From the NCBI GenBank assembly GCA_946183145.1, contig CAMGZM010000016.1, forward strand, positions 1 to 45,156: 45,156 bases of DNA, given 5' to 3'. The DNA comes from an uncultured Fretibacterium sp. Its GTDB lineage: Bacteria > Synergistota > Synergistia > Synergistales > Aminobacteriaceae. Below the pieces are notes generated by a model. The model did no database searches. It had not been told where the DNA came from and was given only the letters and a program-made list of their open reading frames with translations. This document shows, in pieces, positions 3,001 through 44,583 of the stretch. A program made the translations under genes and the position numbers. Each line of letters opens with the position of its first letter. Position 1 is the first letter of the stretch.

Positions 3001-6000
3001 CAAAAAGGGTTCTATTTCACCGAATCGGATACGGGGCTTCCTAGCGCAGAGTACTACGAAAGAGGCTCTAAAGGCTTCATCAGGTACTTCAACTCCGCCA
3101 TGAATAACGCTCTTCAACGCGCTTCTCGTTTGTGGGCTACCGTTCATGAAATTGGGCATAACATGTTCTCGTCCCTTCAGATGAGAGCCAGGAACGGAAG
3201 CATTCAGTCTCTTCAGGACAGAAATACTATCATCACTCATGCGGGGTTCTCCGTCGAACAATTCGAGGCCGATAAACACAATAAAGGCGGAGTCAAAGAA
3301 AAAGTTAATGAATACGCCGCTGACGCTTGGCAAACATACATCGCTGAGGGAAAAGCTCCTAGTCAAGACTTGCAGAAAGTTTTCGACAGAGCCAGAGATT
3401 TCTTCCTCGATACTTACGGCGATATTACCTCTCAGCTTAGAGTTCCCATTGATGATGACTTGAGAGCTGTCTTTGATAGAATGCTCACCATTCCACGACT
3501 CGCTCATTCCTCCGTCGCTGATTTCGCCCTTGACGATATGAGAATCTCAAACCAGATTAAAGCATATGAACAGCTCAGAGATGACGAACAGCGAAAACTT
3601 GATGAGGCTATGCAAGCAAGGCAGGATATGCAGGACAATCCGCAAAACTGGCAAATTGACGAACAGTCCGCGCAACTCGTTCAAGACTATATCAATCAGC
3701 TAGACTACAGAGAAATTCAGCGCGATGAGTTAGACGCTCAAAAACAGCACGCTAGGGAAATTATTGCCGCTATCAAGTCTACAGGTCTAGGCGTTTCTAG
3801 GGCTGACGTTATTACTTACTTCGGAAAAGAAAATCTGCGTTCCTTCTATGATAAATGGCGCGGCACTGGCGTTTATGTCGCCTCTGATAATCATATGGCT
3901 GACAGACTCGCTGACGCTCTCGCCGATTTAGGCTACTTTCAGAATGACGCGACTCAGGCTTTCGGTCAGGGCGCGGGAAATATTCAAGCTCTCATGAACT
4001 GGCTTATGTACTTCGACAAAAAATCTTTGAACATGAACATTGATAACCCGCCTCCAAATGTCGAAATTAATACGGAAACTCTTAATGCATTCCTCGCTCA
4101 GTTAGGCGTTGAAGGTACTGTTGACTACCTAAAGCAGAGACTCAAGCTCATTAACAGCTTCCTAAAGTCGGAGCATGATTTGACTTCTCAGCAGGTTGAA
4201 GCTCTCATTTCTGAACGCGATAATATTAATGACTGGCTTTCTCGGCTTGACCCGGATTTGGACAACGGCATTAAAGCTCCTAAACGCCAGAAGCCAATCA
4301 TCAGCAAGTCAGATTTACGGCGGGGCATTATGACGGGCTACAGAATCGGACAGCAGGAGGAACGCGAATTTTCTCAGCTTCACGAAAAACACGCACTTGA
4401 CACTCAGCGCGATTCACTTTCTGAACGTGAGCAGAAAAGACTTGATGACCTGCGCGCAAAAAGAGAGACTGACAAAATCCATAATCAAGAGAGACTGCAA
4501 ACTATCCTGCAACGTGAACAGCAAAAACACGACGCTCAACATCAGCGCATGATTGACAGATTCCAGCGCAGAATTAATACCTTCAACCAGAGAATAAACA
4601 ACATCAAAAACTTCATCGCTCAATACCGCCAAAGACGCGACATTAAGCAAATGGTAAAATCCATCTTCAGAATGAGCAAGTCTAAATCTATCTCGTGGGA
4701 CAAGCTACAGCAGATTAACTCCCTTCTGCAAGGCTACAACCTAGACAGAAAAGGTATCAAGCACAGGGACTTGTTACGGCAGTTCATCGACATTCAGACT
4801 AATGAAGGCGAGCAATATACTCAGGATTTCGCAGACGAGTTCGCGCAGGACAACAACATCACTCAGCAGGACGTTGACGACTTCCTTTCCGTTACTCACA
4901 TTGAAGATATGACACTTCAGCAGGTGCAGGAGCTTTTTGCTAACGTCAAGGACTTGTTCAGGCAGGGGCGTGAGCAGTTCGTCCAGTGGCGTAATGAAAG
5001 AGACAGCAGAAGGGCGGAAATGTCCCGGGCTTTGCTCGGTGATTTAGAAGCATTCAAACGGGGCAATACTAGAATTCCTAGAGACAACTCCGACTTGACA
5101 CGCCAATACGTAAGCAATATCGCTCATTCTTACTGGAACTCCGTTCAGTTACCGGGACGTTTCCTGCGCGGTCTCGGCGAAAACTTCAGGCGCATTTTTG
5201 AGGACGGAATGACAAAAAGAAGAGGAACGGCTTTCAGGTGGATTGACATTCGCGAAAAAGGTTTCTGGGACGCTCTAGAAAAAAACGGCGTTTCCATCAA
5301 ACAGATTTGGGATAACGCCATCACTGTCGACGGGCATAATTTCTCGTGGGAAGAAGCTCTGTCTATCTATCTCGGCATGAAAAACGACAAGCACAGGGAC
5401 GCTATCCTTTACGGCAATTTCGTCGTCAACAACACTGACAACCTTAAACCTTACACTAACGAGCAGGACGCGCTAAGGGCTATCGGCAAAATCATTCAGG
5501 CCGTCAATGACAACCCCCGCATGAAGGCTATCGCTGACTGGATCGTCTCAGACTTCAACCAGCACTTCGACAGAATACAGCAGGCCAATATTGACAACTT
5601 CAACAAGGGCATGAACAGAGAAGATAATTATTCCCCCATGTTCAGACTTCAACATCAATCTGGACAAGGCGTTAGTTCTTTCGAGATTGAAGCCATGACT
5701 ATTAACGCCAACAATCCGCAAACTCTTCAAGACGTGGCAGATAATTTTCTCTTCGAGCGCAAAAATTTATCACCCGAACAGCAGCAGCCCGTCAACCTCA
5801 AACTCATCTCCGTTTGGTTTGACGCTATGCACATGCAGGAGTTCAACGCCGCTTTAGGCGGCTACGCCGCTGACATCAGAAGCGCGTTGCTCAGTCAGAG
5901 CGACAACAGCTCCGTTCAGCAGAACATCAAAGAAAGATTAGGCGATCTTGACTGGAATACTCTCATCGACATTTACAACAATTCCATCAATGATAACCTT

Positions 6001-7152
6001 CATAAAGATATGAGTACCGCTGACAAAATCGCGTCTGTCCTCGTCAGGGCTAGAAGTGCCGCTTATGTTCCGTTCAACCCTGCAACCGCTTTTAGTCAGT
6101 TCTCTAGCTACATTACCGCGCTCCCTTACGCTGGCGGGCATTTGCTACGCTCCCTGTGGAAGGCCATGCAGGACGCTCCGCGTTTCCTTCAGAGAGTCGC
6201 TCAATTAGGCTTCAAACAAGCATGGAAACAGACAGGGCAATTTAGAGAATCGGTCTACGAGAAATCGCCAGAATTACGCTATACTGCAGGAGACCCAATC
6301 GACAGCGAGTTTTCTCTCAGCCTCGAAAGAAGACCACTTGAGTCAAGCAACAAATATCTTAACTCCGTCCTTCAAACGCAACCTGTAAGAACTTCTGCTA
6401 ACCTCATCAGGCGCGGCTTGGCTTGGGGCTATGGTGCCGTTCAATTCATAGACAACGTTACTAAATCCATCGTCTTTGACGCGGTCTATGACAGAAACAT
6501 TGACAGGGGATTATCTCATGAAGAGGCCGTGCGGCTCGCTGACAGGGCTGTCCGTGATACTCAGCCCGCTTCTACCAACAGGGAAAAGGCGCAGTTTTCA
6601 CGGGGAGGCGCGGTTCAGCAGTTGTTCTTCTCCCAGTTCATGAACGCTCTTATGCCACTGTTCAACATGACTTTTGTCGATACAGCTTACAATCTCACTC
6701 ACGGCGGATGGAATAAAGTTATGGATACGGGATTCAGACTCCTCGCTGTCGCTGGCACTTTCGCGCTCGCAGGCGCAATTAAGGACGCTTTCAACGGAAG
6801 GCTTCCTACTGGCCGCGAACGTGATGACGGCTCCGTCGATGACTTGGGAAGCTGGTTCGCTGAGACCGAATTGTCTAATCTGCTCAACGTCATTCCCATC
6901 GTCAACAGATTCTTTGACGCAGGAAGCTCCATCAGAGGATTCAAATACAGAGCTTATGACAGACTCACCGAACCTGTCGAACGTATCGTTAAAGGCATTC
7001 GCGATTACGGAAAATATGAAGGCGAATTTAACGGACAATCCATTGAGAATATCATTCACGGTGTCGCCTTGCTCGGTCTCCCTATTCCCTATTCGGGCAT
7101 TAGGCAGTGGCTCAGGCTCTTCGGTCTCTACGGAAATGATGACGGCAGATAA
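40..7152 (+). CDS. Giant internal virion/ejection protein with HEIGH metallopeptidase motif (5' end outside window)
   Basis: The frame is open from base 40, after a TAA at 37-39; the first ATG is at 319. No ATG, GTG or TTG occurs in frame between 40 and 319, although that stretch reads as good protein, so the true start lies upstream, probably the gene at 44583 across the window ends. From the ATG it encodes 2277 residues. It has HEIGH at residues 943-947 and a downstream Glu in NEYAAD (about 998), the arrangement of a zinc metallopeptidase with a third Glu ligand. Long charged helical, coiled-coil-like stretches follow (about 1080-1600). The C-terminal 350 residues have hydrophobic segments and resemble the membrane-interacting end of phage ejection proteins. 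Position after gp13/gp14-like genes and before terminators supports a T7 gp16-like role: carried in the capsid and ejected into the host. The peptidase role is inferred from the motif only. Confidence 0.75.
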   Translation, partial: VFCNGSKNYLTGNDNGALGVQFITGQISRDDLFKGVQDNSKNFIQEPRIQTFGNKLAAGVSGILTQGWKNAGKGFLAGGAVALPFAAAGSFVGMAKPFALAGFKAGYYGAMAWELSEDQAGNDVYELLQMTDENGQPLDENVARITACITGAVTVATEFAALKYMLNVIPGGQTIKNFLGIDKQHVINAVRSNPVLRDTFSRIAVDMSKGIGVSTLNNIIEAVNTDLKIPLAQALSSQPFPRLDWRKWAGDTWEHVKDTATSSIRDFTGSALLSFLFDPRQTNLWKTAKWARDFKQSVKNISDATGLPQADVEKSIAENIRAEQLQNIEQQYISEQQNTDIQANNSDNTAQENKPKFVYIPADEFRQFTTDNPAFKGQEAFRAGEEVALTQNVFDLIKNDDNGKAFVNSIADDVRLGADGRTFAEETLRSVNTQQDKAEIFHSTESQKVYDDLVPQLENAGLSHEEADIIGNIARVANTAALAADGIPLIPVSVETPEQAQDFSRINSQYDINNPDTWPNQERAQQYSELSKQAKLPDIIQSTKDILDIISGKKPALGEELSGKSSELFEGMKGEMPAHIKSTMRELLREELNDYRFQLQASGLDVMDSIAALQLDPQRYSINNNFPRGKSRNPDFSYSFSQQGHKAKIDFAVDGIDLTARLKIQGRNEPLIFSVKNFRSASLPQVISDLTSGNTLAGVTLADTPTAQNIADAFSRVWNDLGLNAVPTQHEDFTVDAPISERTDDFSIQKPDTVREDFTLDVKAVNDDSIPIEIITSPTDTSKMPFAARKQLNRDMDAWRNNVEEYLTNPQTTTNSRQEITVMQTPLVLTLLGAKHVPLKINNGKLLKILSEHSSMTPDLLMELPKALADPVAIFPSATGGKDSLVFLTDLKDQHGASVLSAIYLDQRNGTINKIASAYPKIDRKNNPKNQWFRDQIQEAMHNGSPLYVNTTKAQLWQNDTGIQLMQQGDIYTHTEQDLINLWNLPEQKGFYFTESDTGLPSAEYYERGSKGFIRYFNSAMNNALQRASRLWATVHEIGHNMFSSLQMRARNGSIQSLQDRNTIITHAGFSVEQFEADKHNKGGVKEKVNEYAADAWQTYIAEGKAPSQDLQKVFDRARDFFLDTYGDITSQLRVPIDDDLRAVFDRMLTIPRLAHSSVADFALDDMRISNQIKAYEQLRDDEQRKLDEAMQARQDMQDNPQNWQIDEQSAQLVQDYINQLDYREIQRDELDAQKQHAREIIAAIKSTGLGVSRADVITYFGKENLRSFYDKWRGTGVYVASDNHMADRLADALADLGYFQNDATQAFGQGAGNIQALMNWLMYFDKKSLNMNIDNPPPNVEINTETLNAFLAQLGVEGTVDYLKQRLKLINSFLKSEHDLTSQQVEALISERDNINDWLSRLDPDLDNGIKAPKRQKPIISKSDLRRGIMTGYRIGQQEEREFSQLHEKHALDTQRDSLSEREQKRLDDLRAKRETDKIHNQERLQTILQREQQKHDAQHQRMIDRFQRRINTFNQRINNIKNFIAQYRQRRDIKQMVKSIFRMSKSKSISWDKLQQINSLLQGYNLDRKGIKHRDLLRQFIDIQTNEGEQYTQDFADEFAQDNNITQQDVDDFLSVTHIEDMTLQQVQELFANVKDLFRQGREQFVQWRNERDSRRAEMSRALLGDLEAFKRGNTRIPRDNSDLTRQYVSNIAHSYWNSVQLPGRFLRGLGENFRRIFEDGMTKRRGTAFRWIDIREKGFWDALEKNGVSIKQIWDNAITVDGHNFSWEEALSIYLGMKNDKHRDAILYGNFVVNNTDNLKPYTNEQDALRAIGKIIQAVNDNPRMKAIADWIVSDFNQHFDRIQQANIDNFNKGMNREDNYSPMFRLQHQSGQGVSSFEIEAMTINANNPQTLQDVADNFLFERKNLSPEQQQPVNLKLISVWFDAMHMQEFNAALGGYAADIRSALLSQSDNSSVQQNIKERLGDLDWNTLIDIYNNSINDNLHKDMSTADKIASVLVRARSAAYVPFNPATAFSQFSSYITALPYAGGHLLRSLWKAMQDAPRFLQRVAQLGFKQAWKQTGQFRESVYEKSPELRYTAGDPIDSEFSLSLERRPLESSNKYLNSVLQTQPVRTSANLIRRGLAWGYGAVQFIDNVTKSIVFDAVYDRNIDRGLSHEEAVRLADRAVRDTQPASTNREKAQFSRGGAVQQLFFSQFMNALMPLFNMTFVDTAYNLTHGGWNKVMDTGFRLLAVAGTFALAGAIKDAFNGRLPTGRERDDGSVDDLGSWFAETELSNLLNVIPIVNRFFDAGSSIRGFKYRAYDRLTEPVERIVKGIRDYGKYEGEFNGQSIENIIHGVALLGLPIPYSGIRQWLRLFGLYGNDDGR

Positions 7153-20667: not shown

Positions 20668-23070
20668 TTACTCTGTGAAGATGAAGCCTAACTGCCTGTG
20701 CTTAGTCTCAAAGAATTTCACGCCCTCAGGAACGGAAGCGGAATATTTTGCGTTGATATTTGCGGGGTTGGAACGAACATTAGCGTGTAACTCTCTGCAT
20801 TCGATGAGCCTTTTTGCGAACAATTCGGCAATGACATTCTTTTTCCCCTTAGGCTTAGCGATGAACAGTCGCAAGTAAAAGCCGAGCTGAATGATGGCCT
20901 GCGGGGATATGGACGACAGCAGAGAGATAACAGCCTCGAGGAACATGCAAGATGAAATGACGGCGGCATTATGGTCAAGAGCCTTGCGGCGTTCAGCAAA
21001 ATGCAAGTCTTTTGTCTCAATGAGTTTATGCTCAATATCAGCCGGAGCAGCTTCAGGCCTGACTTTAATACGCGGAGAGGGATTAACAGTATATTTCTTC
21101 TTTAGCTTCACATGTGGCTGTTGCGCTGTAATGTCTTTCACTTCAGCTTTGATTGTCATAGCTTTTTCTCTGCGCTGAATGATTTTGTCAGCGTATCTTC
21201 GAGCATAAGCGAGTTTGCGTTCACATTCAGGAGCGGCAATGCGGGTGAATTTATCAAAAACCCTGTCAGCGACGCAAAGAAGCCTAATACTTTCGGAGCT
21301 GATACCTTGCAGAGCGGCAATAATTTCCTCACGAGTTTTGCAAGTAGCAATCTGAGATCGGCATAATTTGAGTTTTTCTGAGAAATCTTTGCGCCGCCAT
21401 TTGTAAATGAGCGGAGAAAAATCGTTAGGATTGCCCGGTGCGAATTTTTCAAGCTCAACGAGCCACGGAGCGAAAACAAAAGACCGTATAGTGTCATTGT
21501 CTGGAGTGATGTTCGAGGCAAGCCACAGCCGTATGTAAATAGCAATGAGCCGTAAGAAGCAGCGAATGCCGGAAGCCTGATTGTAAGGGACGACGGCGGC
21601 GTGAGAGTGATTTTCGGGAATGTCGCAGGCGGGGACAGTAACATACGGGCATTCGTCGGTGATGGTGTCCGGGTATGTAGTGTATTGCGGGCGTTCGATA
21701 TGCTCCGAGGGAACGATAGTAAAGCCGGGATTTTCGGTGTACTGTTTATTCCAAGCCTGGAAGACTTCATTTTTCACGTCAGCTTCATTCTGATGAGGAA
21801 TAACACGGCCTAAACCTGTGCGATATACTGTAGCAGTAACTTCATGGCCGCAATCGCGACATTTGAGTCTGTAGTAGATGTGTTGCCGTGCAATTCCGCC
21901 GTTGAAACGTCTTGTAGCAGTGCTGAAATTGTTATCATCGCAGCGTTTGAGGAAGGGAATATGAGTAGAGCGGCAATTCGGGCAAGGTTTGAGGTGATGA
22001 AGGGGGTTATTGTCGGTGGGGATTGCGTCAGGCGTGTGTATTTCGGGAATGTCCATATCCGGGCAAGAGTTATCGCCGGGCGCGTCAGAATATGAGTCGT
22101 CCATATAGAGGGCATCAGGCTGTGTGATTTCGGCGGGAGCGGAGATTTCCGGCTGTGCAGTGTCTTCACTCTGAGGTTTTCCAGACGGTTCCTGCTTATC
22201 AGCCCAAATTTCAATATTGCGGTATTGCGTCATGAAAGCAGCATACTCAACGCCTGCGATGGTCTGAATTTTCGCCTCTTTGATCCATGCGCCAATGAAA
22301 TCGGTAGTAACAGCGTCAGCGGTTCTTGCGATAATCTTAACGGGGTAATGATTGCCGGAGTCGTTGCCATAGTAGACAGTGCCGGGAATGAATTTGACGC
22401 TGACAGGCTGAGGAATGGTGCGAGGCTTAGGAGCGGGGATAATAATATCATCCTGCTGAGCGTAGCCATTATCGCCGGTAACATTCTCTGCAGTCATATA
22501 GCCGTTGCGTTCTTCGAGGATGAGAGAAATTTTGCTTGCGAGCGCGTCAATGAGTTTAGACTTGTTCATGCGGCTGAAGTAAGGAATAGTGTAGCACAGT
22601 GCAAAACCTTTCAACTGAACGAGAGACGCCCCCGAAAAAGCCCGTTTGATTTCGTCTATGGATTTGCCTTTGAAGTAATCAGCATCGAGGAGCGATTTAG
22701 CGTTATCATTCGTATCACTCTGAACGGTTGCGGCATTCGCGGGCTGTGAGGCCAGTGCGTTATCGTTGTCACTTGCGTTCGTGATTTCTGCAGTTGCGAT
22801 TTCATCGGGCTGTGAGTCATCATCAATGTAGCTGTCAGCATACAGGCAGAAGAATGCAGTTGCGTGTACAAATTCGCCGCGTGAGTCTGACGTGAATATT
22901 TTGCATCTGCAATGAGGCATTTTAGTGCCATCATGTGAAATGTGGCTGAATGTAAGATAGCAGGGAGTGCGTTTTGTTACGGTGTAAATGTCAGTGATGA
23001 AAGTAGCTTTTCCGTCATATTTTGCGGGTAAGTGAAGAGCGTATGATTTACCGACTTCAAATTTTGTCAT
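20668..23070 (-). CDS. Large leftward multidomain protein with Lar-like zinc ribbon, unknown function
   Basis: 800 residues; GGAG lies just upstream of the ATG at 23070. Residues 3-80 and 224-292 look like two copies of a small beta-type module (FEVGKSYALHLPAKYDG versus FIPGTVYYGNDSGNHYP, each with an RT..V..F core). Residues 127-185 form a SAP-like helical segment (VQLKGFALCYTIPYF, NKSKLIDALASKI). Acidic linkers follow. A zinc ribbon spans 360-445: CPNC at 363-366, CRDC at 404-407, and AWNKQY at 439-444 matching the Lar tail. The C-terminal 300 residues are helical. It stands alone on the minus strand with its own operator-rich promoter, like an accessory (moron) gene. An anti-restriction or anti-defence role is inferred from the Lar-like part only. 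Confidence 0.6.
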   Translation of the reverse strand: MTKFEVGKSYALHLPAKYDGKATFITDIYTVTKRTPCYLTFSHISHDGTKMPHCRCKIFTSDSRGEFVHATAFFCLYADSYIDDDSQPDEIATAEITNASDNDNALASQPANAATVQSDTNDNAKSLLDADYFKGKSIDEIKRAFSGASLVQLKGFALCYTIPYFSRMNKSKLIDALASKISLILEERNGYMTAENVTGDNGYAQQDDIIIPAPKPRTIPQPVSVKFIPGTVYYGNDSGNHYPVKIIARTADAVTTDFIGAWIKEAKIQTIAGVEYAAFMTQYRNIEIWADKQEPSGKPQSEDTAQPEISAPAEITQPDALYMDDSYSDAPGDNSCPDMDIPEIHTPDAIPTDNNPLHHLKPCPNCRSTHIPFLKRCDDNNFSTATRRFNGGIARQHIYYRLKCRDCGHEVTATVYRTGLGRVIPHQNEADVKNEVFQAWNKQYTENPGFTIVPSEHIERPQYTTYPDTITDECPYVTVPACDIPENHSHAAVVPYNQASGIRCFLRLIAIYIRLWLASNITPDNDTIRSFVFAPWLVELEKFAPGNPNDFSPLIYKWRRKDFSEKLKLCRSQIATCKTREEIIAALQGISSESIRLLCVADRVFDKFTRIAAPECERKLAYARRYADKIIQRREKAMTIKAEVKDITAQQPHVKLKKKYTVNPSPRIKVRPEAAPADIEHKLIETKDLHFAERRKALDHNAAVISSCMFLEAVISLLSSISPQAIIQLGFYLRLFIAKPKGKKNVIAELFAKRLIECRELHANVRSNPANINAKYSASVPEGVKFFETKHRQLGFIFTE

Positions 23071-27995: not shown

Positions 27996-28647
27996 GGGAC
28001 AATCACAGACTGAGCAGACCGGGAACGTCAAGCCCGCGCTATTCGATGAGCCGCAAGAACACGCAGAGAATATACAGCCGGAAGTTAAGCCAGAAGAGGG
28101 AGTATCAGCAGGTGAAGTCTTCAAGGCAGAGGAAATAACGCTGCCGGAAGGAGAAAAGTTTGACGCGGAATTAGGCCGGACATTTGCGGAAATACTCAAT
28201 GACGGGAATTTGTCGCGCAAGGAATTGGGGCAGAAATTATTTGATTTGTACCATTCGCAGAGCGTGAAAATTCTTGAGGGTCTGAAGTCGGCGGAAGCTG
28301 AGAGGGTGAAAACGTTTGAGGCGGAATTAGCGCAGGAAAAAGCGCAGTGGCTCAAACAGTGCCAGGCAGATACAGAATACGGCGGGCAGAATTGGGAAGG
28401 CTCACAGGCCGTAATCGACAGAGGGTGCAAGCTGCTCGCCACGCCGGAAGCAGTCAGCCTCATGCAACGGTACAACCTAAACACACACCCGGAGATTGTG
28501 AGAATGTTTTACCGTGCGGGGAAACTGGCGGGGGAGGATAAATCACAGGTTTCGGGGAATGGTTCAGGCAAAACCGCAGACCCGGCGACGGCAATATTCG
28601 GTGAGAGCCTGAAAGAATATTACAAGCGAAAAGGAGATAAAGAATAA
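27946..28647 (+). CDS. Scaffolding protein
   Basis: I chose the ATG at 27946 (first of three consecutive Met codons) because AGGAAGGG lies 6 bases upstream. About 233 residues, very acidic with a Glu/Gln-rich disordered N-terminal half, a helical middle (AERVKTFEAELAQEKAQWLK) and a basic C-terminus (LKEYYKRKGDKE). Such charge layout and position immediately before the capsid gene are typical of scaffolds, which guide capsid assembly and then leave. Its stop overlaps the capsid start by one base. Confidence 0.8.
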   Translation: MMMEETTTAMQESTTNEGQSQTEQTGNVKPALFDEPQEHAENIQPEVKPEEGVSAGEVFKAEEITLPEGEKFDAELGRTFAEILNDGNLSRKELGQKLFDLYHSQSVKILEGLKSAEAERVKTFEAELAQEKAQWLKQCQADTEYGGQNWEGSQAVIDRGCKLLATPEAVSLMQRYNLNTHPEIVRMFYRAGKLAGEDKSQVSGNGSGKTADPATAIFGESLKEYYKRKGDKE

Positions 28648-29627
28648 TGGCAGCAGAATTTTTAACGCTGATGGATCTGCGCTCGCGGCTCATGCCTGAC
28701 GGAAGCCCCGTAAATTCATATGCGGAGCTTTTAGCGCAGGAGAATGAAATACTTGATGATATACCGTGGAGCGCGGGTAATCAGCTCACGGGGGATATAC
28801 ACTTCAGGAGAACGGCACTTCCGAGCGCACAGATACGCCGAATAAATCAGGGTTTCGACAGCTCAAAAGGCGCAACGGAAGCCGTAACAGAGACATGCGT
28901 TCAGATAGTCTCAAAAATGACCGTTGATATGGTAGAGCTTGATTTGTCGCCCAATCCGGCAAATTATCTCCTCTCAGAAAGCAAAGGCCATATTGAAGTA
29001 ATGAACCAGGACGTGGTAACAAACTTCTTCTACGGAGCTAACCCGGAAGGTATAAAGGGTTTCGCGTCAAGGCTCAACAAGTTATCGCACAAGCAGGTGA
29101 TAGACGCGGGGGGGTCGGGGAATAATCTTGCGTCAATCTATATAGTGAAGTGGGACACAGACGAGGTAACCGGGATATATCCGAAAAACTCAAAGGCCGG
29201 TCTTGATGTGTACACGCAGGAGAATGTTTACGTCAAGGACAGGGACGGCAAAGACTTCCGCGCTCATGTTACGGAGTGGAGCTGGTTTGTCGGGCTGAAG
29301 GTACGCGATGACAGGTATTTGGCTCGGCTGTGCAACATTGACCGGGACGCGCTTCAGGCAAGCACAGAGGCGGCGAAAAATGCGCGTCAGGAATTGTTCA
29401 GGCTGATGATAAAAGCCAAAAACAGAATTCATCACGTCTCGCAGGGGCGCGTTGTCATGTACGCTGATCCCGATATTTTCGACATACTAGAGCAGGCAGC
29501 GTTTGAGAAGAGTAATAACAATCTAGGGTACTCAGATATTGAGGGCGACAGGAGAATACTCAAATTCGCGGGCATACCGATAAAGAAGAATGAAGCGCAG
29601 AGTTTGGCAGAAAAGAAGGTGAGCTAG
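28647..29627 (+). CDS. Major capsid protein (BPP-1-like, HK97 fold expected)
   Basis: The ATG at 28647 follows AAAGGAG. 326 residues. LMDLRSRLMPDGSPVNSYAE, LLAQENEILDDIPW and VTETCVQIVSKMTVDMVELD are typical of the capsid proteins of BPP-1/N4-type podoviruses and relatives. It lies between scaffold and cement genes. RVVMYADPDIFDILEQAA near the end is the usual strand-helix of the A domain. Several hundred copies would form the shell. No separate protease gene was seen next to it. Confidence 0.85.
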   Translation: MAAEFLTLMDLRSRLMPDGSPVNSYAELLAQENEILDDIPWSAGNQLTGDIHFRRTALPSAQIRRINQGFDSSKGATEAVTETCVQIVSKMTVDMVELDLSPNPANYLLSESKGHIEVMNQDVVTNFFYGANPEGIKGFASRLNKLSHKQVIDAGGSGNNLASIYIVKWDTDEVTGIYPKNSKAGLDVYTQENVYVKDRDGKDFRAHVTEWSWFVGLKVRDDRYLARLCNIDRDALQASTEAAKNARQELFRLMIKAKNRIHHVSQGRVVMYADPDIFDILEQAAFEKSNNNLGYSDIEGDRRILKFAGIPIKKNEAQSLAEKKVS

Positions 29628-30023
29628 ATGATATTCGATTATGAGTTGATGTTCACGGACGAAAATATAGCGTTCTCACCAGTAACAAACGGAGTTGTTG
29701 GGCGTGTGCTTGATTTGGCCGGAAAAGGTCAGGGCAAAGGGTTCAAGTCGTGGATAGCGTTTGCGTTCTCGGAAGATGTAAGCGGCGGGGCTGTGAAATT
29801 CTCGATTGAGACAGCAGACAATGAAGAGTTCAGCGGCTCAAAGGAAATCCCGTTATCACTGCCGGAGTTGAGCGCGTCTGACATGACAGCAGGAGCTATA
29901 TACAGTGCGCCTCTTCCTGTCGTCGGCATGGAGCGTTACTGCCGTCTAAAGGCTGAAGCCTCAAGCGCGGTAACTTTCACGGGGCTGAAAAGCGGTTTTG
30001 TGCTTGACGCTACGCAGGAGTAA
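29628..30023 (+). CDS. Bbp16-like capsid cement protein
   Basis: The ATG at 29628 directly follows the capsid stop, with AAGGTGAG upstream. 131 residues, nearly all beta (KFSIETADNEEFSGSKEIPL, MERYCRLKAEASSAVTF), in line with a jelly-roll cement protein such as BPP-1 Bbp16, which clamps the shell at capsid symmetry positions. The assignment rests on gene order, size and pattern. Confidence 0.75.
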   Translation: MIFDYELMFTDENIAFSPVTNGVVGRVLDLAGKGQGKGFKSWIAFAFSEDVSGGAVKFSIETADNEEFSGSKEIPLSLPELSASDMTAGAIYSAPLPVVGMERYCRLKAEASSAVTFTGLKSGFVLDATQE

Positions 30024-30025
30024 TC

Positions 30026-32929
30026 ATGTCAGTGTTCATTCTCTGCGAACAGGCTGTAGGGCTTGTGCGCGGAAAAAGGCTGATATTGTCCAGTACGGAG
30101 AAATCATATCTTGAGGCACTGAATTATGAGGGGCTGACGGCTGAACATTCGCAAGATGAAGCGGTCGTCTGCGCTCTCCATTTCGCAAGAGTGCGCGACA
30201 GGCTTTTGCAGATTTATCCGTGGGTGTTCGCGAGGAAGTCGGCAACAGTTTCGGCGGGAGGAAGTCTGCCGTCGGACTGCCTCAATGTTCTTTGCGTTCT
30301 CGTTGACGGTGTGCCGGTTGAGTACGAGATAACAGCAGGAAGGCTCAATACGACAGCAAGCGCGGCAGTTCACTACACGGCGAAAATCACAGACACGGAA
30401 CAATGGAGCGCGATATTCCGGGACGTTTTCGTGTATTCACTCGCGATTGAGATATGCAGCGCGGTAACAGGAAAACCCGAATATGTCCAACTGTTAGAGC
30501 AAAAAGCGCAGGAGCTGATTACCCGCGCAATTCAGAACGGAGCAATCAAGGCAGAAACACGAATAACGCTGAAAGATGAGCTGTATAACCGAGCTGTAAT
30601 CTTGTCGCGGGGTCAGAGAACGATAAAGGAAACGAGTACGGCGGCTTTGACGCAGGGGACAGACAACGCCGGATTTGTCAATGACCGAATGACGGCGGAA
30701 TATCAGGTATGCGAGCATTCAGCGGAGAGCGTAAGAAACAGACTGCTAGAGCTTTACCCGTGGGTGTTCGCAAGGAAAAGCGCGTCATTGCTGGGAATGG
30801 CTCAGGGTTCGGGCGGATGGAGCTACAGCTATCAGCTTCCGTCGGACTGCCTGAAAGTGCTTGCAGTTATCGGCTCGGATAAAGCGTTGGAGTTTGAGCA
30901 GGCCGGAGCAAAGGTTTTCACGAATGATGACGCGCAGACTGTCAGATATACCGGGCTTGTTGAGGACGCGGGGAAATGGCCGGGAAGTTTCCGAGATTTG
31001 TTCACGTATCAGCTTGCGATTGAAGTAGTTTACGCAACAACGGGTAATGTTCAGGTCATTCAGCTATTGGAGCAGAAAAGCCTTCAGGTGATACAGTTCG
31101 CATACAACAGCGGGCTAATCCAGAATGAAACGAAACTCCCCGCAAGCGATGAGCTTTACGGGCGGGCGATAAATATAGCTCACGGCTCAGAAGAAGCTGA
31201 CGAGAATATAACAGCACGAAACGCGCGGGAATACTCGGTATGCAAAAACAGCGCAGGTTATATCCGCGACAGGCTCATGCAGTCCCATCCGTGGAAGTTT
31301 GCGAGGAAAAAAGCAAAGATCACAAACGGAACGCTGCCGGGTGACTGGCTCGCAACTTTAGCGGTTACGGTTGACGGCAAGCCGATAGATGATGACGTTC
31401 TGCCATTAAGAGGTGAATTGACGTATACGGCGAAAATCATGGACATAAACAAGTGGGACGCGATATTCAAGGACGCATTCTGCTACTTATTGGCCGGAGA
31501 AATAATCAGGTCAGTGAAGGGTAACGCGGAGTTAGCGCAGTCAACAGAGGCAAAAGCAGATGAGTATATCCGAAAAGGCTACGAGCTGGGAATAATCAAG
31601 GCCGAAACGAAATTAAGCGTCAAAGATGAGATATTCAGCAGGGCGATTAATTTAGCGCGTGGGCAGAGATTAACCAGTCCGACAAGCGAGCAGTCTAACG
31701 CAATGGGACTTGATTACACGGGTTATCCCAACTGGCGCAACGAGGCAGAATATCAAGCGTGTATACGATCAGCAGAGACTATCAGGGATAAACTTTTGGA
31801 GCTTCACCCGTGGGTATTCGCAAGGAAGAGCGCACAGCTTCAGCACTCAGGAGAGAATATCACGGGCTGGGAATACGGTTATGACTTGCCGGAAGACTGT
31901 TTAGCGGTTCTGACAGTAATAACGGAATGCGGAAATCCAGAAGATTATGAAGTTGCAGGAAGGCGAATTTACGCAAACGCACAGGGAATAACAATCAGGT
32001 ACACGGCAAAAGTTACGGAATATAGCAAATGGCCGTCAATGTTCGCGGACGCATACGTCTATTTTCTGGCGTGCGAGGTTCTAACGGCAACAATACCGAT
32101 TGGTGAGGCACTCCAAAACATGGTTGCGTATCTCAAGCGGGAATGCGAGAATGCAATCTCAGAGGGCTACAGGATAGGAATAATCCGGGCTGAGACGAAT
32201 ATAACGCTCAAAGATGAGTTATGCGGGGGGGCTGTGGGGCTTCTGCTGGGACTGTCGGGTGATGAAAAACTTGTGCCGGAAATCAAAGCTCAAGCGTATT
32301 CAGCAGTTCGGCGGGCTTATGACAATATCCGGGACAAACTGCTTCAGATGTACGCATGGACGTTCGCAAGAAAAACCGCGTCATTGCCGACCAAAGCGCA
32401 TAAAGTTTATGGGTGGCGTTATACGTTTGAGCTTCCGCCCGATTGCTTGAGGGTCAACAGCGTGATAGCTCATGACAGGCGCGAGGATTATGGAGCTGAT
32501 ATTGAGTGCATGAGGCTGTCTGAATTTCCGCGAAATGTTGAGATTATCGAGTATGAAGTCTCAGGCTCGGAGCTTTACGCAAACCGCGAAAATGTACATG
32601 TCAGGTACACAGCGAGGATAACGGACAAAGACAAATGGCCGCCGCTATTCACTGAAGCACTGATATACTGCCTAGCGTCAGAAGCGGCTTTGAATGTGCC
32701 AGTGAGAGCCGAAATCCATCAAATACTCATGGAACGGGAAAAACAAGCAATCGAAACAGCAACAGCAAACGGCGTAATCAGGGAAGAAACACGACTGCCA
32801 TTACAGCACGAAAGCACAAGGACTGGACTATTAAACCGCCAGTATCTTGATTATTCAGGGCTTGCAACAATTCCGTGCGGTTACGGGGGGTGCAGAAATG
32901 CAGATGAGTTTTTCATCCGGCGAGATTAA
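30026..32929 (+). CDS. Five-repeat head-tail adaptor-like protein (967 aa)
   Basis: The ATG at 30026 follows AGGAG. The protein holds five tandem copies of one domain of about 175-180 residues. The conserved Trp of the (Y/H)PWVFARK motif occurs at residues 66, 246, 423, 596 and 778, i.e. periods of 180, 177, 173 and 182. Each copy continues with LPxDCLxVL, a strand region, YTAKxTDxxKWPxxF, then an LAxE helix and a (G/N)xIxxET end. This resembles the small T7 gp11/P22 gp4-type adaptor placed between portal and nozzle, which normally has one copy of about 200 residues. The nozzle gene follows and overlaps by 32 bases, so the role is probably the adaptor ring. How five linked copies fit a 12-fold portal is unclear. 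Confidence 0.75.
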   Translation: MSVFILCEQAVGLVRGKRLILSSTEKSYLEALNYEGLTAEHSQDEAVVCALHFARVRDRLLQIYPWVFARKSATVSAGGSLPSDCLNVLCVLVDGVPVEYEITAGRLNTTASAAVHYTAKITDTEQWSAIFRDVFVYSLAIEICSAVTGKPEYVQLLEQKAQELITRAIQNGAIKAETRITLKDELYNRAVILSRGQRTIKETSTAALTQGTDNAGFVNDRMTAEYQVCEHSAESVRNRLLELYPWVFARKSASLLGMAQGSGGWSYSYQLPSDCLKVLAVIGSDKALEFEQAGAKVFTNDDAQTVRYTGLVEDAGKWPGSFRDLFTYQLAIEVVYATTGNVQVIQLLEQKSLQVIQFAYNSGLIQNETKLPASDELYGRAINIAHGSEEADENITARNAREYSVCKNSAGYIRDRLMQSHPWKFARKKAKITNGTLPGDWLATLAVTVDGKPIDDDVLPLRGELTYTAKIMDINKWDAIFKDAFCYLLAGEIIRSVKGNAELAQSTEAKADEYIRKGYELGIIKAETKLSVKDEIFSRAINLARGQRLTSPTSEQSNAMGLDYTGYPNWRNEAEYQACIRSAETIRDKLLELHPWVFARKSAQLQHSGENITGWEYGYDLPEDCLAVLTVITECGNPEDYEVAGRRIYANAQGITIRYTAKVTEYSKWPSMFADAYVYFLACEVLTATIPIGEALQNMVAYLKRECENAISEGYRIGIIRAETNITLKDELCGGAVGLLLGLSGDEKLVPEIKAQAYSAVRRAYDNIRDKLLQMYAWTFARKTASLPTKAHKVYGWRYTFELPPDCLRVNSVIAHDRREDYGADIECMRLSEFPRNVEIIEYEVSGSELYANRENVHVRYTARITDKDKWPPLFTEALIYCLASEAALNVPVRAEIHQILMEREKQAIETATANGVIREETRLPLQHESTRTGLLNRQYLDYSGLATIPCGYGGCRNADEFFIRRD

Positions 32930-34094
32930 CCCGATTTTACACGCAAGGGTTGACTTGTCCCGCTATCATACAGGGCTTGCGGAGCTGTCTAACATGATCG
33001 TGCTTCCGCAAGGAGGCGTAACAAGGCGCGGAGGCTTCAGCCAAATAAAACAGATACCCTCAGGAGATGTGCGGTATATCCCGTTTGAGTACAGCAGCAC
33101 GGACAATATATTAATCGAGTTAAGGGAAAAAACTGCGATATTCTACAGCAATGTATCTGAAAATCTGACAATGAACGCAAGCATATCAACACCATATGAA
33201 GGCTGTGATATTGCGGACATTCGTTATGTGCAGAGCGGAAATGTAATGTTCCTGACGCACAGGAAGTACAAGCCTATGATGTTAAGGCGTGAAAGTTTGT
33301 CGTCATGGGTCATTGAGGAATTGCTGTATAGAGGCGGCCCATTCATTGACGGTGCGGAGTGGAACAGCAACGCGGTTATCAGGCTTGAGGGGTCAGGCGA
33401 TTACAGGACAGTACAAAGCACAGGGGCAGGTATATTCACTTCAGGGCTTGAAGGTACACTGCTGAAGCTGGAATACGCGGTATCACCAAGCACTGAGACT
33501 TTTACGTCTGAACCTGCGCCGCTGACAGGCTCAAGCAGCACGATAGAAGTGAAGGGTACGCTGAACGTGATGACGACGGGAGAATGGAAGGGGATAATCT
33601 CCGTTCTCAGAAGCTCCGACGGCGGCGACTCATGGGTAACTATCAGGCAGTACAAGCGCACAGACCCAGAAACGCAGGGGCAGTGGGATTTCTCAGTAAG
33701 CGAGACTGAAGCCTACATACTTTACCGCGTAACGGCACAGTATACGACCGACACAAACCCGATAGACCCAGACACGCCAGTATACGCGGCGGGAGATGAT
33801 ACGCCGTCAAAAGAACCCGCAGAAGTTACGGTATCTGCAAGCGGCTTCCTGAAAAGCGAAAATTACAGGATACAGAGCGTATCAAGCGAATATTCAGCCA
33901 GTGTAAAACGCGAAACTAAGACAGGCTACGCGATTAATGACAGTTTCAGCGGGCGCGTGTCGTTATGGTCAATAGGCGCGTGGGGAAATGTTCAGGGGTA
34001 TCCGGGAGCTTGCGCAATGTATCAGGACAGGCTGATTTTCGCAGGAAAATCAAGACAGCCACAAACAATATGGATGAGCAGAACGGGCGATTAA
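32898..34094 (+). CDS. Tail nozzle (T7 gp12-like tail tubular B) protein, N-terminal part
   Basis: I chose the ATG at 32898, preceded by GGGGGG; the in-frame ATG at 32847 lies well inside the previous gene. MSFSSGEINPILHARVDLSR and IVLPQGGVTRRGGFSQI are hallmarks of podovirus nozzle/stabilisation proteins. The frame stops at TAA 34092-34094, but the same frame continues as protein without a break in similarity: SRTGD-stop-ADFSISDP, where the family has TGDY or a similar aromatic residue. A Tyr codon changed to TAA is the simplest reading. The intact product would be about 719 residues and form the tail tube tip. Confidence 0.75.
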   Translation: MQMSFSSGEINPILHARVDLSRYHTGLAELSNMIVLPQGGVTRRGGFSQIKQIPSGDVRYIPFEYSSTDNILIELREKTAIFYSNVSENLTMNASISTPYEGCDIADIRYVQSGNVMFLTHRKYKPMMLRRESLSSWVIEELLYRGGPFIDGAEWNSNAVIRLEGSGDYRTVQSTGAGIFTSGLEGTLLKLEYAVSPSTETFTSEPAPLTGSSSTIEVKGTLNVMTTGEWKGIISVLRSSDGGDSWVTIRQYKRTDPETQGQWDFSVSETEAYILYRVTAQYTTDTNPIDPDTPVYAAGDDTPSKEPAEVTVSASGFLKSENYRIQSVSSEYSASVKRETKTGYAINDSFSGRVSLWSIGAWGNVQGYPGACAMYQDRLIFAGKSRQPQTIWMSRTGD

Positions 34095-34118
34095 GCAGAC
34101 TTCAGCATATCAGACCCA

Positions 34119-35054
34119 TTGAAAGATGATGACGCTGTAACGCTTACTCTTGCGGCAAAGGGCGCGGACGGTATTCACAGCCTTGTTGCGGGAAGTGATA
34201 TTCTCGCGTTCACACGGTCGGGCGAGTGGAAGATACGCGGTTCAGGCGACAGCGGCGCAATTACTCCGAGTGCGCTAACGGCTCATCAGCAGACAAGCAT
34301 AGGCACGAAAGACATTCAGCCAGTTGAGGCGGGCGGAAGGATTATCGTCGTACAGGCTCAAGGGCAGAAAGTTTACGCGCTGGGGTATGACCTGAACACT
34401 GACGGCTATACAGGAAGCGAAATATCCATATTAAGCAGTCATATCTTTGAACGTAAGCAGATAAACGGCATGGAATATCAGAAAAACCCGGACAGTATTT
34501 TGTGGTTCGTTCTTGATGACGGGACATTAGCGGGCTGTACGTTCAACCCTGAGCATGAGATTATCGGCTGGTCAAGGCATAATTCAGCATATAGATTTGA
34601 GAGCCTCACGGCTGTAACAGGAGACAATCAGACAGAAATTTTTGCGGTGATGTCGCTTAACGGGGCGAAATATCTGCACAGAATGAACGACAGAAGAAAC
34701 ACTGCGAATTTTGCGGACGGAGGATATGACTTTGACAGCGAGATCAGGACACTGAGACTAAATGCCGGGAGTGAAAACGGGAGCGGATATACGGAGCGGA
34801 AATTAATAGCGCGGGTTGTCCTCAGCGTGATTAACAGCGTCCGGGCTTGGGTTGCTCCGGGTGAATTGAACGACAGCGCAAAAAACTGGCAGAGGCGGAG
34901 AAAAGTAACTTTCCAGACAGCAGACTATATCACTGACGCTGATATTCAGATGGATAACGGCTTCAGCGAATACGCCTGCGTTCATGTGAAAAATGTTGCT
35001 TCTGAAAGACTTACGATAGCGGCAATTACGCCAATAATGACAGCAGGAGGATAA
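34119..35054 (+). CDS. Tail nozzle protein, C-terminal part (same frame, after an in-frame TAA)
   Basis: Same frame as 32898-34094; coding resumes at 34095. A TTG at 34119 could restart translation but has no good ribosome site. 311 residues: LTLAAKGADGIHSLVAGSDI, RIIVVQAQGQKVYALGYDL, DSILWFVLDDGTLAGCTFNP and EHEIIGWSRHN are typical of the propeller-like second half of nozzle proteins. It should be joined to the previous segment if the TAA is an error, or made by read-through. It is followed after 3 bases by the tailspike gene. Confidence 0.75.
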   Translation: MKDDDAVTLTLAAKGADGIHSLVAGSDILAFTRSGEWKIRGSGDSGAITPSALTAHQQTSIGTKDIQPVEAGGRIIVVQAQGQKVYALGYDLNTDGYTGSEISILSSHIFERKQINGMEYQKNPDSILWFVLDDGTLAGCTFNPEHEIIGWSRHNSAYRFESLTAVTGDNQTEIFAVMSLNGAKYLHRMNDRRNTANFADGGYDFDSEIRTLRLNAGSENGSGYTERKLIARVVLSVINSVRAWVAPGELNDSAKNWQRRRKVTFQTADYITDADIQMDNGFSEYACVHVKNVASERLTIAAITPIMTAGG

Positions 35055-40697: not shown

Positions 40698-42125
40698 ATG
40701 AGAGTTCCTGTTTATGAAAGACAATCGGGCATTGCCGCACTTCCGGCTATGCAGTCTCCCGTTCTTATGCCCGAAAATGACGGCGGAAATGCTATCGCGG
40801 GCGCAGTCAGGATTTTGGCCGACAGAGCAATCAAAATCCATAATGATTGGGAGGACTCGCGGACTCTGGAGCTGTTCTCTAAATTCAAGGCTGACAGCTC
40901 AGACTTTCACGACAACCCCGACACGGGCATTTTCAACACTCGCACGGGCTATCTTTCGGAAGGCGTGTTTCATGACGCTGACAACTGGATGAGAAAACGC
41001 GGGGAAGATTACGCTAGGCAGTTACAATCGCCGAGAGCTAAAAATAACTTCAGGCGCATGGCTTCTGATTTCATCACTCAGCAGGGACATACTAATTCAC
41101 GCTTTGAGGCCGCCCAAATGAAGAAATACCGCACTGACACGGCGGACGCGGCTGTCAAAAATTATCTGGCTGACATTGAAGCTCACTGGGACGATCCTGA
41201 ATATATCCAGAAAGCAAGAGAAGCTATCAATCAGGCTCTCGAATTAAAGCACAGAGGCGAGGGGCAAGAAGTCTTCTTCAATGCAGGGCTTGAAGTTGAT
41301 GACCAGATTGCTCAGGCAAGAATTAGACAGGCTTATCTCAGAGACCCATTAAGGGCGGTGCAACTGCTTAATGACAGAGATATTAAGCTCAAACCTGATA
41401 CTCGCGCCAAACTTACCGAGGCTTTGCGCAACAAAACAGAAATTTATGAGTTACGCGCTATCGCTGAGGCGTACGCTAAGAATTTCACGCCGGAAACATC
41501 TGCTGACGCTGAAAGAAAACTCATTCAGACTTACGGCGCGGAAAAAGGTCAGAAGGCTTTTCAGGCTCTCACCCGTATCTGGAGCGTTCAGAATTATCAG
41601 GATTACGCAAAGAGAAGAAATACCGCTATCCAACAAGCTCAGGCTGAGGACGATTTCGTCATGCGATTCATGTCAAATGATGACACTTTGACCGCTGAGG
41701 AAATACAGAACGCCGCAAGAAATAAAATCATTGACCCAAATAAGGCTATGGCTCTCATCAGAGGGCTTCACGCTAGAGAAAATGAAGCTCAAAAACTCAT
41801 CAAGGAACAACAGAAACTTGAGGCAAAAAAAGCACAAATTGAGCTGGAAATTCTTTCGTGGGCGGGAAATTGGGCGGATGACAACTTCCTTCAGGGCTTT
41901 ATCCATGACAAAACTATGACTGAGGACGAGGCGAGAGCTTACAGAAACAGGCGAGAGCAGTTCTACGCGGACAAAAGAAAATCTACTCTCAGTGATACCG
42001 CTGACAATCTCACTAGAAAACTTGTTGACCCGGACAAATTCGGAAGGCTCACACTTGACGATATTCAAGCCAATATCGACAATTTAGACCCCAGACAAAG
42101 CCAACGCGCTCAAAAATGCCGTTGA
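40698..42125 (+). CDS. Large internal virion protein, N-terminal part (frameshifted)
   Basis: 475 residues up to a stop caused by a frameshift. The frame is coding to about 42090 (ANIDNLDP), then the +1 frame carries on sensibly with DKANALKNAVETRDKAEQ. Removing one C from the CCCC at 42090-42093 joins both parts into one protein of about 1295 residues. The N-terminal part is helical, rich in Gln, Lys, Arg and Ala, with no membrane segment, as in T7 gp15-like ejection proteins. The break is most simply a homopolymer sequencing error. Confidence 0.7.
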   Translation: MRVPVYERQSGIAALPAMQSPVLMPENDGGNAIAGAVRILADRAIKIHNDWEDSRTLELFSKFKADSSDFHDNPDTGIFNTRTGYLSEGVFHDADNWMRKRGEDYARQLQSPRAKNNFRRMASDFITQQGHTNSRFEAAQMKKYRTDTADAAVKNYLADIEAHWDDPEYIQKAREAINQALELKHRGEGQEVFFNAGLEVDDQIAQARIRQAYLRDPLRAVQLLNDRDIKLKPDTRAKLTEALRNKTEIYELRAIAEAYAKNFTPETSADAERKLIQTYGAEKGQKAFQALTRIWSVQNYQDYAKRRNTAIQQAQAEDDFVMRFMSNDDTLTAEEIQNAARNKIIDPNKAMALIRGLHARENEAQKLIKEQQKLEAKKAQIELEILSWAGNWADDNFLQGFIHDKTMTEDEARAYRNRREQFYADKRKSTLSDTADNLTRKLVDPDKFGRLTLDDIQANIDNLDPRQSQRAQKCR

Positions 42126-42255
42126 AACAAGAGATAAGGCCGAACAAGCTCAAGCCGCGAAAAATGATGAGGAAGCAAGAAAACATTTTCAGACTTCTCT
42201 GCGCATTATCGTCGAGAACGGCGGACTTATCAGACGGGCGCAGGTCAATACTCTT

Positions 42256-44583
42256 TTGCGGAAAGAAAAAATTGATGACGCTTTCGCCAATTACCTCTAC
42301 GGCAAAGAAGACGCTTACAACAAAGAGCAGGAAAGACTGAGAAAAGAGAATGAACGGGAAGCCGCTTCCGCTAAAAAATTAGCTGACAAACAACAGGCTG
42401 AACAGGATAAATTACAGCTCAAGGAAAATCTTTACTCACAGGCTCAACAGTTCGCCAGAGTTTACCCGACTGGAAACAGTGGTGAGGGGCGGTCGTTCAT
42501 TCAAGGGCTGAATATACCAGTCGACGATAAAAATCAGCTCCTCCAATATTACGATGACATTATCCAGTCGCAAAGGCAGCAAGGCAAAGATTCTTCTGAC
42601 GAGGCTAAACGCTCTAGGGAAGAGATTCATAACTTACAGCTCGCAAGCATTATTAACGGGCGCGGGCAGTCAAGAGAGTTTTACCAAAAGGCTTTGGACG
42701 AGGGAAATATTACCCCGAAAGAATATAATGACTACATCGCTGAATTAGACAAGCTAGAAAGAGCAAACGCTAAAGTTCAGGAAGACAGCATGAAAGATAC
42801 TGCCTTGCGCAACGCTGACAGCATTTTTCAGCAGTTCGGACTTGATAATCTTGATGCCGCTTACGAGGCTATAAGGGCTATCCCTGACAGAAACGAACGA
42901 CTCCAAACTTGGAATTACTTTAATGACAGGCTCGCTCAGGAAAGAACCGTAAGACAGGAAGACAACAGAATCAAATCAGAAAGACAGAAGCAGAATTACA
43001 GGGACATCGATAATAATTACTGGCGAAATTTCAAGGCCGTACCGCCTCAAGTACTCGATGATTTGAGGAATAATGAAGGGCTGACTGAGGAACAATACCA
43101 GAGAGCGCAAGCCGTAAACGCCAAAATCGGACAAAGAGCGGGCGTTATCGATGAGATTATCAGTAATAATCCAGACTTCAACAACTGGACGCTCGCTAGA
43201 CAGGAAGCAGAAATTATGAGCCGCATGGGGACTACTGAAGATGACAGAAAGCAGAATGTAGCCAATCTACTCGCGCTCTTGCAAGATGGCAAGCTCACAG
43301 ACGCGCAGATTGATTTCGACTTCTATCATGGCAAAATTTCCACTGAGGACAGAGAGAATATCAAAAACTTTGACAAGCGTTTCGAAAAAATGCAAAAGTC
43401 CGCTATTCATGCTACGGAAGCTATGTTATTGCAGTTCGTAAACAACTTAGGCGTGTTCAAACCTGAGTTACGCCAAGAACTTATCAGAAATGCAAGAGTT
43501 GATTTCATGCTCGCTACTAATAAACTTGATGTCAGGGATAAGGATTTCTACACAAGGCTTCAGGACATTTATAACACTCTCGTGCAAAATATCTCCACCG
43601 TGTACGCTGAGAAAGTTAGTTTTACTTACGGCTGGATATTCAAGTCTCCTACTCCGGCGGGCATTCGTTACAAACCAGCAAGAGCGCAAGCTGATAGGTT
43701 CTCCGTTCCTAAACCTCAGGTATCTATGCCGTTTCAGAATGCGTCAGGCGATTGGAGCTATATTGATACTCAGGGCAACCAGTTTCAGCCGCAGACTTTT
43801 ACGCCGACTCAGACACAGCAAGAAAACATTCAGCATGATCCGTATTATCAGGACATTCCGCAGGAGTTCTTCACTCCATTCTACCCTCAGCCCAGACAAC
43901 AAAATTCTGACAACGGCGGGGACGTTAAGACTGTACAGAATACAACAACTAATACGCAAAATCGGCAGCCGCGTGATATTGGGCTGGAAATGTTGCCGGG
44001 GGCTACCATCACAGGCAGGTTTGACGACTGGAGAGCCTACAGAAACGGCAAGCACAACGGCGGCGATTATGCTATCGCTGAAGGTACGCCAATCACTTCC
44101 GCGGATTTCGGCCTTCCTGTCTCCGTCGCTAAGGTCAATACTACTTCTCCTTACAGGGGCGGCGGCAATTCCGTTACTCTCGCGGGCTATGCTGATAACG
44201 GCGACTACTACGAGTTCATTATCAGCCATATGAAAAACGGAAGCATTCCTCTCAAAGTAGGCGATTTAGTTACTCCGGGTACTGTTATCGGCCAGGTTGG
44301 AAATACCGGCATGACTTCTGACAGGGCTAAAGGCGGTATTACGGCTTGGTACAAAGGCAAGTCCTCAGGCTATCACATGGACTTGAAAATCAGAATCAAC
44401 GGCAAATACATTGACCCGCAGAAATACATTCCACCGACAAGAAATAACGTTCAGGATATACCAGCTCCGCCCGTCGTCAGCTCGGAAATTGAGAGGCTCG
44501 ACGCTCTTAACGCTATTCTCTTCGGCAATCTTGGCAGCTTCGACATTTTCGCGCCTTCGGGCAGTTTCGGGGTGAACTACTAA
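42256..44583 (+). CDS. Large internal virion protein, C-terminal part with M23 peptidase domain
   Basis: The listed start is a TTG, but the frame is coding from about 42091 and belongs to the gene starting at 40698. 775 residues. A long Glu/Lys/Gln-rich helical body is followed by a low-complexity Gln/Pro/Phe linker (about 500-580). The C-terminal M23/LytM-like domain has KHNGGDYA (His codon 44053, Asp 44065), ISHM (His 44227), GQVGNTGM and YHMDLKI. The last motif has His-x-Asp where M23 enzymes have His-x-His, so one zinc ligand is replaced. As a virion enzyme it would open peptidoglycan during DNA entry. It overlaps the next start by one base. Confidence 0.75.
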   Translation: MRKEKIDDAFANYLYGKEDAYNKEQERLRKENEREAASAKKLADKQQAEQDKLQLKENLYSQAQQFARVYPTGNSGEGRSFIQGLNIPVDDKNQLLQYYDDIIQSQRQQGKDSSDEAKRSREEIHNLQLASIINGRGQSREFYQKALDEGNITPKEYNDYIAELDKLERANAKVQEDSMKDTALRNADSIFQQFGLDNLDAAYEAIRAIPDRNERLQTWNYFNDRLAQERTVRQEDNRIKSERQKQNYRDIDNNYWRNFKAVPPQVLDDLRNNEGLTEEQYQRAQAVNAKIGQRAGVIDEIISNNPDFNNWTLARQEAEIMSRMGTTEDDRKQNVANLLALLQDGKLTDAQIDFDFYHGKISTEDRENIKNFDKRFEKMQKSAIHATEAMLLQFVNNLGVFKPELRQELIRNARVDFMLATNKLDVRDKDFYTRLQDIYNTLVQNISTVYAEKVSFTYGWIFKSPTPAGIRYKPARAQADRFSVPKPQVSMPFQNASGDWSYIDTQGNQFQPQTFTPTQTQQENIQHDPYYQDIPQEFFTPFYPQPRQQNSDNGGDVKTVQNTTTNTQNRQPRDIGLEMLPGATITGRFDDWRAYRNGKHNGGDYAIAEGTPITSADFGLPVSVAKVNTTSPYRGGGNSVTLAGYADNGDYYEFIISHMKNGSIPLKVGDLVTPGTVIGQVGNTGMTSDRAKGGITAWYKGKSSGYHMDLKIRINGKYIDPQKYIPPTRNNVQDIPAPPVVSSEIERLDALNAILFGNLGSFDIFAPSGSFGVNY

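Follow-up and report, generated by a model that had tools for sequence, protein, structure and literature searches.

Profile matches and predicted structures confirmed that a 967-residue protein is composed of five tandem podoviral head-tail adaptor domains (phrog_394 / T7 gp11-like). It is encoded in the window, by which we mean the whole 45,156-nt stretch of DNA from an uncultured Fretibacterium sp. (Synergistales) that was analysed. The ORF occupies exactly 30026-32929 on the + strand, starts with ATG and has AGGAG 5 nt upstream. The initial annotation had recognised five copies of an adaptor-like domain in it, and both the copies and their Trp codons (30221, 30761, 31292, 31811 and 32357) were found where it placed them. 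The repeat motif reads PWVFARK in three copies, PWKFARK in the third and AWTFARK in the fifth; the motifs are spaced by 540, 531, 519 and 546 nt, and the repeat unit is ~160-190 aa long. The whole protein matches phrog_394 of PHROGs in five stretches (E = 7e-127), and each unit matches this family alone (E = 7e-14 to 2e-30). A six-row domain profile matched the Carin1 connector (8ck1, E = 2e-15), the closest relative with a solved structure, and LME-1 orf17 (9efk, E = 3e-6) in the PDB, and tblastn retrieved BPP-1 Bbp14 and epsilon15-type adaptors. A Pfam search of the 967-aa protein named no adaptor family, and its HRCT1 match, which was under the cut-off, was discarded as spurious. In the AF2 model of the fourth and fifth domains (D4-D5), each domain is predicted to fold as alpha1-alpha2-beta-alpha3-alpha4 (mean pLDDT 75, pTM 0.49). 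The top Foldseek matches of this model were Carin1, LME-1, T7 gp11, PhiM1 and the crAss001 ring proteins 7qog/7qoi. The full-length AF2 model shows the alpha-beta-alpha secondary structure five times, at low confidence (pLDDT 62, pTM 0.30). A four-helix bundle with a beta fibre-dock insert is thus present in the D4-D5 model and in the full-length secondary structure. The links from alpha4 to the next alpha1 are 10-12 residues long in the AF2 models, whose inter-domain arrangement carries no confidence. Membership of an unrelated family, which would have spoken against the initial annotation, did not emerge, as PHROGs placed every unit in phrog_394 and Foldseek returned podoviral adaptors.

The five domains are 32-42% identical in pairs (blastp E = 1e-14 to 1e-43, far past chance), and 23 invariant columns are common to the five repeats and a single-domain relative. 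Because the copies share just 60-80% DNA identity, confined to short blocks, collapsed or expanded repeats in the assembly are unlikely. Production of separate domains from internal translation starts was also considered and rejected, as no strong ribosome-binding site was found at the domain borders. Podoviral adaptors have a single domain per chain; this chain has five, and it was filed as a multi-domain variant.

Each domain resembles phrog_394 adaptors (BPP-1 Bbp14, Carin1 8ck1 and LME-1 orf17 9efk, with the T7 gp11 fold) in sequence and predicted fold, and the gene takes the same place as theirs, between cement/capsid and nozzle genes. In contrast, known members of phrog_394 have a single ~200-aa domain in each chain and a single gene in each genome, whereas the window has five domains of position-specific types. 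That the ORF occupies the usual place of an adaptor gene had been proposed before and was borne out: the cement gene precedes it, the nozzle gene follows, and terminase, portal, scaffold-like and capsid genes are nearby (Table 1). It was also correct that no other adaptor gene is present, as the five domains gave the only adaptor matches in the whole 2.5-Mb host genome, with no normal single-domain adaptor elsewhere in it. In the literature covered, which lay mostly outside subscription papers, no fused multi-domain adaptor was found. As far as we found, the five-domain form is new, a variation on a known part that has not been described before. The earlier claim that no adaptor of this form has been described therefore stands for the literature, but two-domain, two-gene and probable multi-domain relatives exist, as described below.

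Table 1. Adaptor gene of the window, its domains and the neighbouring morphogenesis genes (positions in the window; L099, G016 and G025 are relatives described in the text)
Feature	Position	Strand	Evidence or remark
Portal, Head-tail_con PF12236	25978..27702	+	E 6e-124
Major capsid protein, PF20911 GP7	28647..29627	+	
Cement-like protein, Bbp16-like / phrog_427	29628..30023	+	
Five-domain adaptor gene, 967 aa	30026..32929	+	ORF and phrog_394 matches
D1, first type	30026..30583	+	nearest to single-domain adaptors; 57% identical to L099 first domain
D1 alpha1-alpha2 loop, canonical	30083..30163	+	T7 gp11 counterpart contacts nozzle (PMC6702177); 49% identity to references vs 16-22% in D2-D5
D2, internal type	30584..31153	+	phrog_394 match, tree
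D3, internal type, shortest, beta region reduced	31154..31636	+	phrog_394 match, tree
D4, internal type	31637..32200	+	phrog_394 match, tree, AF2 model
D5, terminal type	32201..32845	+	~20-aa insert common to G016 last domain and G025 single-domain adaptor
C-terminal arm, LDYSG motif, once, after D5	32780..32926	+	also ends L099, G016 and several single-domain adaptors
Nozzle, phrog_376, start approximate	32952..35054	+	in-frame TAA at 34092-34094

Conservation differs among the domains by region. As references for every unit, we used eight domains from relatives, namely six single-gene adaptors and the two adaptor genes of a prophage, G108. In the alpha1-alpha2 loop, D1 shares 49% identity with the references, about as much as these share among themselves (37-51%), whereas D2-D5 share 16-22% with them. 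The beta region is 31-37% identical to the references in all five domains. With columns taken as independent and regions picked after the alignment had been inspected, the excess of D1 over alpha1-loop-alpha2 gave a permutation p of 5e-5, and the same N-terminal excess of the first over the second domain of a two-domain relative, L099, gave p = 0.003 (0.00015 for the loop alone). In the window, in L099 and in another relative, G016, the DYSG arm is found only behind the last unit; in G108, it is confined to the second gene. T7 gp11 touches the nozzle through its alpha1-alpha2 loop and the portal through its C-terminal embracing helix, together with the end of the helix before it (PMC6702177). 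Because D1 alone has the canonical loop and D5 alone the arm, the T7 contact map, applied here to a distant relative, suggests that nozzle contact was retained in the first domain and portal contact in the last. Such positional conservation would be predicted for a stack rather than for a single ring with five equivalent positions.

The region-specific conservation and the tail barrel of crAss001 together suggest five rings of 12. The crAss001 barrel is 23 nm long and is built from paralogous proteins of adaptor fold, which form exactly five dodecameric rings in a stack (PMC10172136). By analogy, the 12-fold portal would carry twelve chains, with a separate 12-mer ring formed at each of the five domain positions and these rings lying one above another. 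D5 would lie on the portal, which the C-terminal arm would embrace; D2-D4 would be the middle rings; and D1 would bind the hexameric nozzle at the far end. As estimated from helix lengths, the links of 10-12 residues would reach the portal-side domain and not the nozzle-side one, which would place the domains in this same order, with D5 toward the portal. The product would be an extended tail barrel from a single gene, ~20-23 nm long if ring height is as in crAss001, and it may serve to reach through host surface layers. We consider this the likeliest reading, with about an even chance of being right, the stacking being inferred. The crAss001 proteins R1-R5 are likewise diverged paralogues of the same fold that make five rings on a 12-fold portal, as is proposed for the window. 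However, they are encoded by four separate genes and are 15-31% identical (PMC10172136), whereas the window has one fused ORF, and no crassvirus relationship of the window phage was seen.

It had been pointed out in the initial annotation that five linked domains do not divide evenly into a 12-fold portal ring. This problem arises only if the domains lie in one ring, and it vanishes in the proposed stack because each domain would form its own 12-mer ring. Consecutive domains might instead take neighbouring positions of one adaptor ring as a pseudo-oligomer; six two-domain chains would then fill 12 sites, and of five domains perhaps four would enter (3 chains x 4), or the sites would be shared irregularly. 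The links, as modelled, can bridge neighbouring subunits, and the two-domain protein of L099 would suit the 12-to-6 symmetry step to the nozzle. The alpha4 end of T7 gp11 is directed toward the portal side (PMC6702177), and the alpha1 start likewise, judging from its topology. Nevertheless, we regard an arrangement within one ring as unlikely: all of its domains would have to contact both nozzle and portal, yet no domain but D1 has the canonical nozzle region and none but D5 the arm, and 12 is not divisible by five. Some points weigh against the stack. The canonical residues of D2-D5 could have been lost by relaxation of redundant copies, although conservation persisted elsewhere in these domains, and the modelled links would also permit side-by-side neighbours in one ring.

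A single ordinary ring formed by one working domain, with the other domains outside as spacers, fibre-docking or decoration modules, seems rather improbable to us. The beta region is the counterpart of the fibre dock of T7 gp11 (PMC6702177), so that extra copies could hold extra fibres, and D3 has lost part of this region. However, all five domains retain the alpha-beta-alpha structure and common core residues, which is more than free decoration needs. The protein could also be a polyprotein from which a protease frees single-domain adaptors for normal or mixed rings. Separate paralogues do stack in crAss001 (PMC10172136), and G108 has two separate adaptor genes side by side. In addition, the gene at 27880 of the window matches phrog_458, a family annotated as 'protease', though its position suggests a scaffold. 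No conserved cleavage motif was found between the units, however, and the links differ in length and sequence, so we hold such processing to be very unlikely.

Across 188 genomes surveyed at phylum level and 207 domain-bearing loci, multi-copy cases were found only in the window (five), G016 (two complete domains), L099 (two) and G108 (two genes). L099 (IMGVR_UViG_3300028887_000381, IMG/VR) has two domains in a 405-aa protein, and its portal, capsid and nozzle genes are intact. The G108 prophage has two adjacent adaptor genes (224 + 234 aa), which adjoin the nozzle gene. G108 and L099 are the same kind of phage as that of the window (their portals are 47% and 64%, and their capsids 54% and 66%, identical to those of the window, respectively) and share its restriction of the arm to the last copy, but they have two copies (unfused and fused, respectively), not five. 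The gene order of G108 (L253, G108:C11) is unlike that of the window: terminase, the two adaptor genes and nozzle come first, followed by portal, scaffold, capsid and cement.

G016 has two complete domains in a 448-aa frame, which opens with NTRITVSEELYQRAIGLVRGQRT, a segment that aligns to the end of one unit and the start of the next. Its upstream cement gene is truncated, and an anti-repressor gene lies between the cement gene and the array. Because the frame starts with a unit end and a unit start and lies beside the truncated cement gene and the anti-repressor gene, the G016 array is a remnant of at least three domains. The anti-repressor gene is Ant-like and is located at 4490-5424 of L068 (G016:C55), between the truncated cement gene and the truncated array. 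The relatives fall into a series of rising copy number: a single domain, two neighbouring genes in G108, two domains fused in L099, at least three in the remnant of G016, and five in the window.

Among INPHARED phage records, 88 of 88 and 152 of 152 have one adaptor place each, as found with two adaptor queries. A motif scan of IMG/VR with the whole protein gave no close relative, and scans of it with internal-type and terminal-type profiles gave no further array. In BFVD, Foldseek aligned unnamed viral proteins to several domains of the model in a row, at 13-19% identity: A0A516M5L4 (1139 aa, 1018 columns), A0A516L4P3 (583 aa, 809 columns) and A0A6J5LSM0 (512 aa, 733 columns). These predicted structures look like probable further arrays. 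Other long BFVD proteins, e.g., Q6RCF4 (741 aa), align over ~250 columns only, as expected if one adaptor domain is fused to something else.

We further suggest, with somewhat less than even confidence, that barrel length is written in one gene. A chain would span all rings, the number of tandem domains would equal the number of storeys, and tails would lengthen or shorten by in-frame recombination, relatives having 1, 2, at least 3 and 5 domains. If true, this would be a covalent, ruler-free setting of tail length. Adaptors have been treated as one-domain, one-ring parts; stacking of paralogues is known from crAss001. With its specialised copies in a set order, the fused five-domain adaptor is a directly testable case of tail extension in short-tailed phages, and a natural copy-number series (1, 2, 2 fused, at least 3 and 5) within one phage group suits such testing.

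A tree of the units informs the history of the array. D5 groups with the last unit of G016 (97/97), and D2-D4 group with its first complete, penultimate unit (93/88), while D1 falls among single-domain adaptors and L099 units. Monophyly of the five window units was rejected by the AU test (p-AU 0.005), and with it a recent expansion from one copy inside this phage. Corresponding units of the window and G016 are just ~41-46% identical. Because D5 and D2-D4 pair with their positional counterparts in G016, the ordered array of first, internal and terminal types is older than the split of the two phages and has been maintained since. As regards the stepwise duplication initially proposed, not all of the copies were born inside this phage, given the counterparts of D5 and D2-D4 in the G016 prophage. 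A dimer duplication of the form (AB)(AB)C, indicated by D1+D3 and D2+D4 pairs in the first FastTree tree, was dismissed, as D1+D3 was rejected (p = 0.012); AU testing gave no decision either way on D2+D4. L099 and G108 probably represent separate duplications. By eye, the single-domain adaptors of L100 and of G025, a relative in the same genus as the host, are apparent mosaics, with an N-terminal part of the first type and a C-terminal part of the last type; in-frame recombination would be expected to leave such mosaics if it can also reduce copy number.

The window copy of the prophage may be defective. The in-frame TAA splits the nozzle gene into 380 + 311 aa; the remainder is open in the same frame, and the stop lies at a position with Tyr in relatives (RTGD-stop-ADFS vs VGDYKNFS in L099). 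Because the nozzle gene holds this stop codon, the prophage may no longer make virions. Thus, this copy may be decaying, or the stop may be a sequence error; the array itself is fully open. The array could then serve no particular function and be the neutral outcome of unequal recombination within a prophage that is defective; the nozzle stop at 34092, the cut array of G016 beside an anti-repressor gene and the mosaic-like adaptors of L100 and G025 all fit this. We find it hardly credible, however, that copies at 32-42% identity with 967 open codons and 23 columns invariant with a single-domain relative are merely decaying. In addition, the array types are older than the split from G016, and in L099 both the two-domain gene and the nozzle gene are intact.

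Several other features of the window were observed. At 40698-44583, a single 822-aa ORF of L152 is matched by two ORFs, of 475 and 775 aa, that lie in different frames, which may reflect a frameshift or a split gene for an internal virion protein. Another L152 ORF, of at least 1419 aa, aligns to both contig ends (3145-3675 and 44703-45107), which hints at a circularly permuted phage genome or a giant internal protein broken here. An 800-aa ORF on the - strand (20668-23070) matched no Pfam family and had a weak PHROG match (Lar-like, E = 0.001). A 2277-aa protein encoded at 319-7152 has a MuF-C domain (PF18819, E = 3.5e-17).
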